DNA from: a virus | Virus record (IMG/VR): IMGVR_UViG_3300045999_008849 | Location: 1 to 20,933 of that record | Length of the DNA stretch: 20,933 bases | Direction: 5' to 3' (one strand) | Part shown: piece by piece, positions 12,827 to 17,394 of the stretch | Numbering within the stretch: position 1 is the first letter of the stretch | Layout: every line of letters begins with the position of its first letter | The notes under the pieces: model-generated | Seen by the model: only the letters and a program-made list of their open reading frames with translations | Database searches by the model: none | Told to the model about the DNA's origin: nothing | Made by a program: the position numbers and the translations under genes

Positions 12827-13864
12827 TTACTCTACTTCGCAAGCTTGCTGATATAAATCTTGAAAAATTTCTTTAATAATTGTTTTATCAAATTCAAATT
12901 CAGATTCATCAATGTAACGATTAAGAATTGAAATTGTACTTTCTTCTTCTTCAATTTGAAAATTTTCATTTTCTTGTATGTCGAAGTTTTCTACAATCTT
13001 AAGTTCTTGAATTTTTGCAGAATAAAGTTTGTCAATAAATTTTTCAAAATCTTTTGGTTTTGATTTTTTACGAACAATCACTTTGACAATTTTGTCTTCA
13101 TACTCGGTGGCATCAAATAATTGATAAGGAGTATCTTCATAATAAATGTTATAAAATAATTTATAAGGATTATTAATTGGAGTATGAGTAAGGGTTTCCG
13201 TATCGAAGATATGAAATCCACGAGTATCATTTACATCCGTCCAATACATTTCATAAGGATTACCGAGATAGAAGATACTTCCATTATCAGAACGAGTGTG
13301 GTAATGACCAGAAAATACCTTTTTGAACTTTGAAAAAATAGTCGAGTCCAGTCCATGATCCTCCATAACAAGATTGCGATTTACCCGAAAACCCTGAAAT
13401 TCAAGGTGCCCCATAGCAATTTTTGCTTTTGTTTTTTCAATATGTTTTAAGGTTTCATCATAGTTCTCACTACAAATCCAAGGAACCATCATAATGTCCA
13501 GTCCACCAACTTTAATGGTTTGTGGAGAACTATAAGTTTGAATATTTGGATAGGTCTGAAGAAGCAAACTTGGAGAATTGACGCTATTGGTATTCTTATA
13601 GTAACAATCATGATTGCCAATAATCATATGAACCTCATAATTCCGCAGAGGTTCAAATACAACTCTCTTTGCCCATTCAAGACTTTGATAATCAATTGAC
13701 TTACGACTATCAAATGCATCACCCATATGAATAACTGATTCTACTCCATGCTCCTCAAGTGCAGGGAAAAAGACATTCTCATAGAAGAGTTCAAAATAAT
13801 CGTGGAGGTATTTTGAACCCTTTCGGGCACCATAATGAGTATCAGTAATAATAGCAACCTTCAT
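12827..13864 (-). CDS. 47: Recombination endonuclease subunit gp47 (Mre11/SbcD-like)
   Basis: A 345-residue metallophosphoesterase nuclease, partner of gp46. Metal-binding motifs of the Mre11 family are in order: DTHYG at 8-12 (D-x-H), GDAFD at 48-52, GNHD at 83-86, GHLEFQG in the middle and SGHYH about residue 205. These cover the two-metal active site. The C-terminal 120 residues are the variable capping and gp46-binding part, ending in an acidic stretch (QIEEEESTIS). Length agrees with T4 gp47 (339). Its start overlaps the end of gene 55 by four bases (ATGA); its stop is followed directly by the DUF3110 start. The complex resects ends and supports origin-independent replication in T4. Confidence 0.97.
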   Translation of the reverse strand: MKVAIITDTHYGARKGSKYLHDYFELFYENVFFPALEEHGVESVIHMGDAFDSRKSIDYQSLEWAKRVVFEPLRNYEVHMIIGNHDCYYKNTNSVNSPSLLLQTYPNIQTYSSPQTIKVGGLDIMMVPWICSENYDETLKHIEKTKAKIAMGHLEFQGFRVNRNLVMEDHGLDSTIFSKFKKVFSGHYHTRSDNGSIFYLGNPYEMYWTDVNDTRGFHIFDTETLTHTPINNPYKLFYNIYYEDTPYQLFDATEYEDKIVKVIVRKKSKPKDFEKFIDKLYSAKIQELKIVENFDIQENENFQIEEEESTISILNRYIDESEFEFDKTIIKEIFQDLYQQACEVE

Positions 13865-14334
13865 CGGGTTTTGTATTGGATGTTATCTTTGATAGTATTA
13901 TAGTCGCTACTAGCTCCAAAAAGCAAGCCCTCATCTACCATCATCACTTCATCAAATCCACTTCTTTCAATAATTTTAGATTTTATTTCTAACTGTTTCT
14001 TTTCTTTTTGAATTCTTCTCAAAAAAGCATAATGAATAATTTGAGTGAAATAAGCAAAAGGATTACTACTTTTGTTAGGATCAAAATTATGAATATATTG
14101 AATACAATTTTCTACACCATCAGAAATCATATCCTCACGAAACATGTAATTTACAAAGTTCGGTTTATATGATAAGTGAGTTGCAATTTTTAAAAAGCAG
14201 TCGCCAAGATAATTTGATATTTGAGGTTTTGCCAACCCATTCTCTTTGGATTTGAGATACTTTGATCGGTAAACAATAATTTCTTCTAGCAGCTCCTTAT
14301 TATTTACATAGTGCTCTGATTTCTTTTTAGGCAT
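13861..14334 (-). CDS. 55: Late-transcription sigma factor gp55
   Basis: A 157-residue divergent sigma factor that binds host RNA polymerase core and recognises late promoters of the TATAAATA type. The HYVNNKELLEEIIVYRSKYL stretch (8-27) copies the T4 NYVNNKELLQAIIDWK start. The sigma region 2 core is DMISDGVENCIQYIHNFDPNKSSNPFAYFTQI (about 69-100), followed by AFLRRIQKEKKQ; T4 has EMIADGIEASIKGLHNFD and NPHAYITQA. The protein is about 28 residues shorter than T4 gp55 and lacks an obvious copy of the C-terminal clamp-binding LDFLYE motif; it ends YNTIKDNIQYKTR. A strong promoter lies just upstream. Gene 47 overlaps its stop by four bases. Confidence 0.96.
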   Translation of the reverse strand: MPKKKSEHYVNNKELLEEIIVYRSKYLKSKENGLAKPQISNYLGDCFLKIATHLSYKPNFVNYMFREDMISDGVENCIQYIHNFDPNKSSNPFAYFTQIIHYAFLRRIQKEKKQLEIKSKIIERSGFDEVMMVDEGLLFGASSDYNTIKDNIQYKTR

Positions 14335-14456: not shown

Positions 14457-14876
14457 CTAGCCTTCTTTATGATCTTTATTATTCTTGAATATACTTTCTA
14501 GTTTTTTACGGGCTTCTTCTACTGAAGACAGATATCCCATTCTATCCGATATCTTAACTTTTCCACTAGGGCTAGTAGTTAGTACTTCATCATCATCACT
14601 TTCAATATAATTATTATAACAATCTATTATAAGTTCATTATTAACTTCTGTCATAGTAATAATTTTATCCAATCTAATAATAAAGAAATCATCAGATGGA
14701 ATTTCCATCCAAGGTTTTATCTTTATCATTTGACCATTCTGATTTGTAATAACTTTAATTACAACTGGGTTTTGCAGCACTATGATTGGATCTCCATCAT
14801 TTTCATCAATTGAAACCAATGAAAATATTTCTTCTCCACTAACTAATTTAATGCTGCTATAAAATTCTTCTCCCAT
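14457..14876 (-). CDS. Small beta-rich protein, possible Sm-like fold, downstream of uvsW
   Basis: A 139-residue protein without known function. The first 90 residues look like a small beta barrel: YSSIKLVSGEEIFSLVSIDE, then PIIVLQNPVVIKVI, MIKIKPWMEIP, FFIIRLDKIITMTEV. The SGEE - QNPVV - KPW pattern (13-16, 35-39, 54-56) repeats the SGED - RNPIV - APW pattern of the 95-residue protein near gene 44. A linker with Asp and Ser follows (SDDDEVLTTSPSGKVK) and the C-terminus is a charged helix (VEEARKKLESIFKNNKDHKEG). Its ATG overlaps the uvsW stop by one base (TAATG). The 122 bases after its stop hold the gene 55 promoter. An RNA- or nucleic-acid-binding role is a guess from the fold pattern. Confidence 0.75.
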   Translation of the reverse strand: MGEEFYSSIKLVSGEEIFSLVSIDENDGDPIIVLQNPVVIKVITNQNGQMIKIKPWMEIPSDDFFIIRLDKIITMTEVNNELIIDCYNNYIESDDDEVLTTSPSGKVKISDRMGYLSSVEEARKKLESIFKNNKDHKEG

Positions 14877-16339
14877 TAGCTTTTAATTGGTATGTTTACA
14901 ATATCGTAATTGAAGTTTTCTTCATTATAAACTTTAATTCTTTCTATTAAGTGATTAAGTGTATAATTTTTTCTTGATTTATAACTGATATCATCGGCAA
15001 TATCATACAAAGTTGCTTTTGTTTTGTTATCGCTCTTTCTCAATACTCTTCCAATTGATTGGAGATTGCGGATTCTAGACTTCGAAGGTGAAGCAAAAAT
15101 AACATTATGTAAATTCTTAATGTTAATTCCAGTACTAAACGTACCATAGGACGCCACAATAATTGCATTATTTTCCTTTTCAGTAATTTCTCTGACCTTT
15201 TCTCGGTCTTCCGTATCTACACCACCATGAACAAAAAATACATGGCGATTGTCCGATATGCTATTATTTATGAGATCGTATAATGGTTGTCCGTGACCTT
15301 CTACTCTTGAAAAAAGAATTAAAGTATTACCTTTAAGATCAAGAGCAAGATTGCGAATAAACTTATTTCTACGCTCATGATTAATAATATACTGAACTTC
15401 TTCCTCAAAAGTTTCAAATTTATTTGGTGGGTGTTTCAATAGAAGAATATTAATATCCAGTTTGGCAACATGACCCTTCTGCATTAATTCATCTGTACGA
15501 ATAATCTTGTAAGAAGGACCAAATAAACCCTCTAAAACCCACTTATGGGTTTGTGAACCATCTAAAGTTCCCGTAAAACCATAACGATATTTTGCATCAG
15601 AAAGTTTTGTCATTATAGATACTAATGACTTTGATTTAAACTGGTGTGCTTCATCTCCTACTACCACATTAAATCTTGAAAAATATTGTCGGGGAAGTTT
15701 GTAGATAGACTGCCAGGTCGTAATGATTACCTGTGAGTCTGTTTCTCTTTCCTTTCCCGCATATATCTTGTGGCAGTATGAACCCACATCCCATCCATAA
15801 TCTGCAAAATCTTTATACATCTGCTCTACAAGGGATGTCGTTGGAACGACTATCAGAGTATTTTGTCCTTTCTCAACGTAATATCTCACAATTGAATATA
15901 TCATCAACGACTTTCCAGAAGCAGTTGGTGATATCAGCAACTTTCTATTATGTCGTAAAGCGTCGTATACTCCCTCAACTTGGTACTCGCGGGGAGAGTA
16001 CTTGCAAATAGAGTTCATATAATCTTTTACACCTTCCTTTGAAATCATTTCGTTGACTTCAAATGGAAGACCATAGAATTTATTATTTGCAAACTCATAA
16101 GTATAATTGTGATTTTCGCAAAATCTTATAAGTTTATCTAATAATCCAACGTATATTTCTCCAGTTTGGGTATTAAATAGACGTATTTTTCCATCCCAGT
16201 ATTTGTTGCGAAACTGGGGCATAAACTTCGCACCTGGTACATCAAAAGTAAATTGATCTGCCAGTTCATAATAAACATGAGGTTCTGCCTTTACTTGTAG
16301 GTAAACCTCATTCTTTTTGGAAATTATCAAATGAGTCAT
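14876..16339 (-). CDS. uvsW: RNA-DNA and DNA helicase UvsW
   Basis: A 487-residue SF2 helicase that in T4 removes R-loops, regresses forks and moves branches, shutting down origin replication late in infection. The first 100 residues match the T4 UvsW N-terminal domain (FTFDVPGAKFMPQFRNKYWD, where T4 has FSFEADGYRFNPRFRYGNWDG). Then come the Q-like PREYQ, Walker A SPTASGKS (137-144), VVPTTSLVEQM (motif Ia), DEAH box (229-232), motif III GFTGTLDG, FSRVEGHG (motif IV), and motif VI QSIGRVLRKS. Start ATG at 16339 lies directly after a 10-bp hairpin that overlaps a late-promoter-like sequence, a layout known for late-expressed T4 genes. The stop overlaps the next gene by one base. Confidence 0.95.
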   Translation of the reverse strand: MTHLIISKKNEVYLQVKAEPHVYYELADQFTFDVPGAKFMPQFRNKYWDGKIRLFNTQTGEIYVGLLDKLIRFCENHNYTYEFANNKFYGLPFEVNEMISKEGVKDYMNSICKYSPREYQVEGVYDALRHNRKLLISPTASGKSLMIYSIVRYYVEKGQNTLIVVPTTSLVEQMYKDFADYGWDVGSYCHKIYAGKERETDSQVIITTWQSIYKLPRQYFSRFNVVVGDEAHQFKSKSLVSIMTKLSDAKYRYGFTGTLDGSQTHKWVLEGLFGPSYKIIRTDELMQKGHVAKLDINILLLKHPPNKFETFEEEVQYIINHERRNKFIRNLALDLKGNTLILFSRVEGHGQPLYDLINNSISDNRHVFFVHGGVDTEDREKVREITEKENNAIIVASYGTFSTGINIKNLHNVIFASPSKSRIRNLQSIGRVLRKSDNKTKATLYDIADDISYKSRKNYTLNHLIERIKVYNEENFNYDIVNIPIKS

Positions 16340-16365
16340 ATACTCATAATATTACTTATGAGTAT
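16340..16365 (-). promoter_or_regulatory. Hairpin directly before the uvsW start codon
   Basis: A perfect 10-bp inverted repeat ATACTCATAA/TTATGAGTAT with a 6-base loop ends at the base before the uvsW ATG. In a transcript coming from upstream it would hide the ribosome site; a transcript from the late promoter at 16363-16370 would lack most of the 5' arm. Confidence 0.65.
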
Positions 16366-16370
16366 TTATT
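16363..16370 (-). promoter_or_regulatory. Late-promoter-like AATAAATA for uvsW
   Basis: AATAAATA differs from TATAAATA at the first base and lies 23 bases before the uvsW ATG. The expected start site, about six bases downstream, falls inside the 5' arm of the hairpin. Confidence 0.5.
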
Positions 16371-16373
16371 TGC

Positions 16374-16805
16374 TCAATTAAACCCTGCTTGGAAACGATG
16401 CCACTCAATAGCATTTTTGATCTGGAAAGTTCTATTTGAGATGGTTTTAATAATCTCTTCAAGAAATTTGAGCATAATATCATAGTATCTAATTTTAAGA
16501 TCTATTTTATTCAGTCTCTCATCGGCATCCATATGCCTCTGTAATGCTTCTTTTTCTCTAACCTTATACGGAAACGGTTCTTCTACATAAACCTCTACTG
16601 GTGCCTTTCCTGTGTAGTAGTTATAGCGTTCTAATTTAACTTTATTGTATGTTTCTCTTGCCTTTTCTCTCAAAAGAGTTACTGTATTGTAAACTGTATA
16701 ATATTTTGAATGTAACTGGGGTATTTTTAAAGACTCATCATGTAAATTATCAGGATCAATTACAGAATCTTTTTCCCACATTTCCTGAATTTGTTCAAGG
16801 TTCAT
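16374..16805 (-). CDS. uvsY: Recombination mediator UvsY
   Basis: A 143-residue protein that loads the UvsX recombinase onto gp32-covered single-stranded DNA. It matches T4 UvsY (137 residues) along its length: MNLEQIQEMWEKDSVIDPDN at the start (T4 MRLEDLQEELKKDVFIDSTK), LHSKYYTVYNTVTLLREKAR, the ERYNYYTGKAP segment (T4 LDYYSGRGD), a LNKIDLKIRYYDIMLKFLEEIIKTI helix and the end RTFQIKNAIEWHRFQAGF (T4 RGFAIKHIQDMRAFEAGK). The helical, charged character fits the hexamer. The ATG overlaps the stop of the upstream tail gene (ATGA). Order uvsY-uvsW is as in T4. Confidence 0.95.
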   Translation of the reverse strand: MNLEQIQEMWEKDSVIDPDNLHDESLKIPQLHSKYYTVYNTVTLLREKARETYNKVKLERYNYYTGKAPVEVYVEEPFPYKVREKEALQRHMDADERLNKIDLKIRYYDIMLKFLEEIIKTISNRTFQIKNAIEWHRFQAGFN

Positions 16806-17350
16806 AATAGTTTATTATTTTTGTCAAATATATTGTACATAGTATACTTGAAAGTTGCTTCTGCTGTAAAGTAATTAATATCAGTATCAGTTGCTTCAAA
16901 TTCTAATGAAGTTAATGAAACTGGGTATAACCCTCTAAAAACAACATTTGCAGTTGTTCTATAATTGCTATTTAATATTTGTAAAGTACCATTACTAAAT
17001 TGTAATTTTGGATCTTCTGTCCCGTTTTCATCGGTAATTAATTTTTTAAATTGCTCATGAGATTCTGGAAATCCTAATGCGGTTATCCAATTGTGTATTG
17101 CCATATAATTTGACATATCTTCATCCACAAGAAATCTCAAATAAAAATCTCCATACACAACTTGATCACCTGGAATATCAATCGCTTTAAAATAATTGCT
17201 TTGAACTGCCGTGTTTAAAGTAATATCTGGAATTCTACAACCATTAGAAAAGAAAGAAACTTTAGGATATTTTTGTAGAGTAAATTTAAATCCTACTGGA
17301 GATAAAAAGTTTCTATTCTGTATTTGATTACTAAAAACAGTATTCGCCAT
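16802..17350 (-). CDS. 3: Tail-tube-fold virion protein, probably gp3-like tail completion protein
   Basis: A 182-residue structural protein. MANTVFSNQIQNRNFLSPVG is followed by GFKFTLQKYPKVSFFSNGCRIPDI and then a section typical of T4-type tail tube relatives: DIPGDQVVYGDFYLRFLVDE, DMSNYMAIHNWITALGFPES. The C-terminus carries beta strands (NVVFRGLYPVSLTSLEFEA, AEATFKYTMYNIF). In cyanophages, the gene between 23 and uvsY is, as I recall, called gene 3 (tail completion and sheath stabilisation). The visible fold is that of tube proteins gp19/gp54, so a baseplate-tube or tube-cap role is the alternative. A late promoter CTAAATA sits only 10 bases before the ATG at 17350, and the gene 23 terminator just before that. 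Confidence 0.68.
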   Translation of the reverse strand: MANTVFSNQIQNRNFLSPVGFKFTLQKYPKVSFFSNGCRIPDITLNTAVQSNYFKAIDIPGDQVVYGDFYLRFLVDEDMSNYMAIHNWITALGFPESHEQFKKLITDENGTEDPKLQFSNGTLQILNSNYRTTANVVFRGLYPVSLTSLEFEATDTDINYFTAEATFKYTMYNIFDKNNKLL

Positions 17351-17368: not shown

Positions 17369-17394
17369 AAAAAAAGAGGGTCCGAAGACCCTCT
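17369..17394 (-). terminator. Strong terminator after gene 23 with UUCG loop
   Basis: On the minus strand a perfect 8-bp stem AGAGGGTC/GACCCTCT closes a TTCG tetraloop (C-UUCG-G, a very stable type) and is followed by seven T residues. Confidence 0.92.

Follow-up and report, generated by a model that had tools for sequence, protein, structure and literature searches.

A conserved hairpin at the uvsW start codon of T4-like cyanophages, cut into by a late promoter, as a probable translational timing switch

Leaders of this design in T4 and at cyanophage uvsW

In phage T4, the early RNAs of genes e, soc and 49 are folded and silent, and a late promoter lies in or near the 5' arm of the hairpin (PMC3014915). 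The same pairing of a late promoter with a hairpin over the ribosome-binding site (RBS) has been described for the leaders of I-TevI and segB in T4 and of mobE in phage Aeh1 (PMC2988022). We identified a leader of this kind in front of uvsW in the window analysed here, a 20.9-kb IMG/VR virus fragment from a T4-like cyanophage. As at e, soc and 49, the hairpin is placed over the ribosome-binding site, the late RNA would lose the 5' arm and the gene appears to lie downstream of early transcription. Unlike those cases, the gene encodes a helicase central to recombination, the phage infects a cyanobacterium, the Shine-Dalgarno (SD) motif is weak and the stem abuts or includes the ATG. The leaders of I-TevI, segB and mobE share the combination of late promoter and RBS hairpin, and a second cyanophage case, described below, also belongs to a homing endonuclease (HNH). 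In contrast to those genes, uvsW is not mobile, and its leader design persists, with strong covariation, across a large clade of cyanophages.

In T4, UvsW is made late, from a late promoter of its own (PMC3016281), and cyanophage uvsW resembles it in having a late-promoter box. The T4 gene differs in standing divergent to inh, with an inserted segE in which promoters are embedded, and we found no hairpin of this kind at the T4 uvsW start. This arrangement fits the suggestion, made in a preliminary description of the locus, that the cyanophage had built the same logic separately. The psbA leader of S-PM2d also combines sigma70 and gp55 sites with a hairpin in the 5'-UTR; this inverted repeat was suggested to affect mRNA stability, and was described as a possible stability element rather than as a hairpin split by the choice of start site (PMC5931967). 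Searches of the open-licence literature found no report of a uvsW hairpin or of split-hairpin control in cyanophages. The mechanism is known from T4, and its proposed use at uvsW and in cyanophages would be a new case within that literature.

A single scan rule, a late box followed by a stem reaching the ATG, was applied to four genomes. Five of the six matches in T4 are e, 49, I-TevI, segB and soc, and the sixth lies inside mobD.1. Structures that hide the RBS are described for T4 genes including the first five of these matches (PMC3014915, PMC2988022), and the layout earlier ascribed to the late genes e and soc was recovered by the scan at both, in line with the reviews (PMC3014915). The match common to S-SRM01, S-SKS1 and P-SSM2 is uvsW. 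For S-SRM01 and S-SKS1, the total number of such layouts is close to what shuffling gives; thus, matches that are not conserved should not be trusted, and it is conservation that singles out uvsW. In S-SRM01, a late promoter and start hairpin (AAGTATGGTTAGTAACCATACTT) also precede an HNH homing endonuclease gene beside recA/uvsX (L136 446-1027; S-SRM01 162245-162826), free-standing between recA/uvsX and a primase/helicase gene, and this layout is kept in IMG/VR relatives (L434-L451) with compensating changes. In P-SSM2, a late-promoter hairpin built of A and U alone, TAAATACTTAAAAAGTATTTA, lies close to the ATG of a hypothetical gene after purH2 (L138 464-1141, 157263).

The uvsW leader in the window and among relatives

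The window carries on its minus strand, in order, gp23, gp3, uvsY, uvsW, an Sm-like gene, gp55, and gp47- and gp46-type genes, an order syntenic with S-SRM01, S-SKS1 and P-SSM2 (Table 1). A predicted terminator isolates gp3-uvsY-uvsW from transcription of gp23. In the segment 17360-17394 (minus strand), this strong terminator is followed immediately by CTAAATA, just 9 nt upstream of the gp3 ATG, and many relatives are arranged likewise; a late promoter at CTAAATA would yield gp3 RNA almost without a leader. Directly 3' of uvsW, with a 1-base overlap, lies the gene for the Sm-like protein (14457-14876, minus strand; PF16243 1.6e-12), which is labelled 'methylamine utilization' in other phages and occupies the same place in most of the annotated relatives read. 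This protein is a possible RNA-binding partner of the uvsW leader.

Table 1. Genes and leader elements around the uvsW start, in positions of the window
Feature	Position	Strand	Basis
gp55, late sigma factor and expected reader of the late promoter	13861..14334	-	phrog_234 3e-67
uvsW, helicase gene, proposed target of the regulation	14876..16339	-	PF21241 UvsW_N 4e-14; phrog_16 1e-121
Hairpin 3' arm, TTATGAGTAT, covering the ribosome-binding stretch	16340..16349	-	leader fold; opening energies
Hairpin loop, GTAATA	16350..16355	-	leader fold
Hairpin 5' arm, ATACTCATAA	16356..16365	-	paired in 61/92 distinct leaders
Predicted +1 of late RNA	16357	-	T4 geometry, about 6 nt past the last A
Late promoter box of gp55 type, AATAAATA	16363..16370	-	position 19-25 nt conserved; cyanophage late consensus
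uvsY, same direction as uvsW, stop 34 nt upstream of uvsW	16374..16805	-	PF11056 1e-47
gp3-like tail gene with internal promoter	16802..17350	-	phrog_45 tail tube 2e-37; synteny
Sigma70-like promoter, TTTACA-18-TATACT, inside the gp3 3' end, before uvsY	16841..16870	-	motif; synonymous constraint
Intrinsic terminator between gp23 and gp3	17375..17394	-	terminator scan; many relatives too

The minus-strand leader reads GAGCAAATAAATACTCATAAGTAATATTATGAGTAT up to the start codon ATG, with GCAAATAAATACTCATAAGTAATATTATGAGTAT separating the stop of uvsY (16374) from the ATG of uvsW (16339). The perfect 10-bp hairpin ending at the ATG, as given in the preliminary description, was confirmed: ten perfect pairs close a 6-nt loop (16340-16365, minus strand; arms 16365-16356 and 16349-16340), and the 3' arm abuts the start codon. 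The predicted fold of the 66-nt leader has an energy of -13.8 kcal/mol (z -4.0), a value equalled by none of 200 shuffles. Three perfect hairpins of at least 10 pairs with a loop of at most 8 nt occur in the window against 0.15 expected, and uvsW alone has a stable hairpin among the window ORFs that have TAAATA 12-45 nt upstream. Rfam covariance models gave 0 matches above the gathering score in the window. As the SD match at uvsW is weak, the sequence hidden by the hairpin is in part that around the start codon, with no clear SD.

Three other readings of the leader were rejected. A conserved SD is not supported, since the SD-like AGGTGA of class-1 leaders is too distant from the ATG and is missing in other classes. 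A conserved upstream mini-ORF in the 3' arm (in the window, ATG AGT ATA TGA) was dropped, as it is not kept in other leader classes. An intrinsic terminator is not indicated, given an AU-rich stem with few GC pairs, no U-tract and no entry for the hairpin in the terminator scan.

The late box shares 3 nt with the start of the 5' arm, and the cyanophage late promoter consensus is NATAAATA (PMC2984593). ATAAATA is not enriched in the window (7 seen, 6.7 expected); the box was thus rejected as stand-alone evidence, and fixed position and conservation must carry the case for a promoter. The comparison drew on 366 related uvsW loci, 153 of them differing in the region of the start. TAAATA lies 19-25 nt upstream of the uvsW ATG in 124 of these 153, and in those 124 it occurs at no other distance within 12-45 nt. 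The distance is unchanged when ORFs intervene between uvsY and uvsW (gaps of 25-2003 nt), suggesting that the leader goes with uvsW rather than with the 3' end of uvsY. The claimed overlap of a late-promoter-like sequence with the 5' arm holds in the window, and the distance of the box from the ATG is nearly fixed among relatives. The other 29 contexts, including Syn9, S-PM2, P-HM1 and S-T4, have no TAAATA 12-45 nt upstream of uvsW, and in many of them uvsW overlaps or almost abuts the preceding gene. The uvsY-uvsW gap is itself a hot spot for insertion, ranging from 25 nt to 2 kb (L009, L013, L025, L029, L030, L051 and others), with one small ORF in S-SKS1 and three in P-SSM2.

In T4, late transcription starts about one helical turn downstream of the TATA box (PMC2988020). 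Applied to the cyanophage box, this spacing places the putative +1 near 16357, within the 5' arm, and a late RNA starting there as in T4 would keep 2 of the 10 bases of that arm. In the predicted folds, the read-through RNA (-17.4 kcal/mol) contains the hairpin ending at the ATG, and the late RNA from 16357 (-5.8 kcal/mol) has an open start region and no start hairpin. Opening the segment from -12 to +6 is predicted to cost 11.9 kcal/mol in the read-through RNA versus 5.5 kcal/mol in the late RNA. The corresponding predicted means are 10.6 versus 5.5 kcal/mol for hairpin loci and 7.1 versus 4.9 kcal/mol for other loci. We predict that the hairpin covers the start region in the longer transcripts.

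Conservation of the stem as sense-strand RNA

Conservation of the paired bases across cyanophages, which the preliminary description had named as a check, was found, with compensating changes. A stem forms in 61 of the 92 distinct leaders that bear the promoter, compared with a mean of 13.8 and a maximum of 26 for shuffled spacers, under a rule that scores G-U and A-C mismatches equally. In one class, 21 leaders align without gaps; 93% of their pair cells are paired, and six pairs have changed on both sides. The covariation score of these aligned leaders is 0.537, against 0.267 +/- 0.027 for shuffled ones, and pairing does not exceed 43% when the register is slid by one to three bases. On the uvsW tree, the columns of the inner pairs 8-26, 9-25 and 13-21 change at least 9, 5 and 7 times, respectively, and these pairs are unbroken in all 37 tree loci. 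On the strength of these shuffles and the covariation, a chance AT-rich dyad was rejected.

In the stems, 60 mismatches are G-U and 8 are A-C, compared with 404 and 268 when the registers of these leaders are slid (Fisher 1e-6, indicative only, as the rows are related). The excess of G-U over A-C suggests that selection acts on the mRNA strand, which tells against both a DNA operator and an antisense RNA; it was mainly on this asymmetry that the two were rejected. Overall, the sequences argue for conservation of the uvsW hairpin as a sense-strand RNA structure. The stem is found in several sequence classes and registers (i+j 30 to 33); the class-2 stems (A2) vary too little for significant covariation. 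Close relatives can have leaders of differing classes, suggesting that leaders have been swapped by recombination.

About a third of the promoter-bearing leaders (31 of 92) have no short stem. Syn9, S-PM2, P-HM1 and S-T4 have neither promoter nor stem, and many Kyanoviridae are without the layout. Given these stemless promoter leaders and the Kyanoviridae lacking both elements, the switch proposed below would not be essential to the family.

Early transcription, the proposed switch and its alternatives

The sigma70-like promoter inside the 3' end of gp3 is a candidate early promoter for uvsY and the likely origin of any early RNA that reads through into uvsW. In a comparison of 62 distinct gp3 genes, the codons spelling its two hexamers are under the strongest synonymous constraint of the gene, with an excess homozygosity of 0.28 compared with a gp3 mean of 0.094 (p 1e-4). 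These codons include TAC and TTC, which are not the usual choice elsewhere in gp3, and TTTACAG-N17-TATACT is exact in 45 of the 62 genes. In S-PM2, the genes homologous to those under MotA control in T4 are stated to have both early and late promoters (PMC2984593), and the gp3-embedded candidate agrees with that report. The terminator scan of the window found no terminator between uvsY and uvsW. Judging from the 34-nt gap, a ribosome halted at the uvsY stop would reach no further than the first few bases of that arm of the hairpin which lies 5'.

We propose that the uvsW leader is an early-off/late-on translation switch operated by the choice of transcript, a reading to which we assign a probability of roughly 0.8. 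Early RNA made for UvsY, probably from the promoter in the gp3 3' end, would continue into uvsW with both arms of the hairpin, which would hide the ribosome-binding stretch and the start codon, and little UvsW would be made. Once gp55 appears, RNA polymerase would start at AATAAATA, about 17 nt upstream of the ATG, and the late RNA, without most of the 5' arm, would form no hairpin and be translated. UvsW would thereby be reserved for the late, recombination-driven phase. We infer the late start site, the early read-through RNA and the effect on translation. The early-off/late-on idea was already part of the preliminary description, and it gained support in those parts open to sequence comparison, namely the promoter, the sense-strand stem, the geometry, the upstream promoter and the T4 scan. 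T4 UvsW unwinds R-loop origins. By analogy, the purpose of the switch may be to protect early R-loop origins.

Alternatively, the conserved element might be a DNA operator, a palindrome at the late promoter bound by a dimeric repressor, with the RNA fold incidental. The palindrome does overlap the promoter, and in T4 I-TevI binds an operator at its own late promoter (PMC2988022). However, the stem sequence varies widely among relatives, its register shifts between classes, and an operator would not favour G-U over A-C as the stems do relative to the slid registers, all of which makes an operator very unlikely. Slightly less improbable, and still unlikely, is an element that processes or stabilises mRNA at the 3' end of uvsY or the 5' end of uvsW without blocking translation, for which the inverted repeat in the S-PM2d psbA 5'-UTR is a precedent (PMC5931967). 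Against this, the hairpin follows uvsW rather than uvsY where ORFs intervene, abuts or includes the start codon and has no U-tract after it, and late RNA would not carry it.

Late timing could also be set by the promoter alone, the hairpin being a residual AT-rich dyad with a minor role or none. The stemless third of the promoter-bearing leaders and the better conservation of the late-box distance than of the stem speak for this. The repeated compensating changes and a number of stems far above that in shuffles speak against it; moreover, among neighbours that lack the stem, some carry the promoter in the loop of a longer hairpin (L376) or have a terminator. We regard this explanation, too, as having little chance of being correct, and prefer control of uvsW translation by transcript choice.

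Some stemless relatives suggest other ways of stopping early expression. Among loci whose uvsW is at least 86% identical to that of the window, 13 of 21 stemless leaders versus 7 of 68 stem-bearing ones have an intrinsic terminator downstream of uvsY and upstream of the late promoter (Fisher 5e-6), a trade between hairpin and terminator that is not established after correction for relatedness, since independent contrasts are too few. That terminator and hairpin are mutually exclusive solutions is likewise not shown, strong as the raw counts are. Terminators upstream of uvsW include GAGGCAGAAATGCCTC-TTTTTT and GGGGTTTAATTGACCCC, the latter overlapping the uvsY stop; loci with such terminators are L185, L238, L365, L369, L370, L386, L388, L394-L396, L404, L063 and others, most of them lacking the start hairpin. 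In a stemless class without a terminator (L376), a 15-pair hairpin holds the promoter in its loop. The terminator or the longer hairpin may thus be alternative means of stopping early expression, which we note as a lead. It is a tentative and rather doubtful extension that cyanophages keep early UvsW off by interchangeable means, that is, a start-codon hairpin, a promoter-in-loop hairpin or a terminator after uvsY. If this were true, early replication would rely on UvsW-sensitive R-loop origins, as in T4, and cyanophage origins would become testable.

The proposed switch would extend a translational timing device of T4 to a gene at the core of recombination and replication, in phages whose hosts are marine and freshwater cyanobacteria, and the conservation evidence for it is stronger than a hairpin prediction from a single genome. 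The simple rule of a late box followed by a stem to the ATG can be used on other T4-like phages. The switch also predicts when UvsW appears. Since R-loop origins are dissolved by UvsW in T4, strict confinement of UvsW to the late phase would hint that cyanophages, too, may start replication from R-loops.
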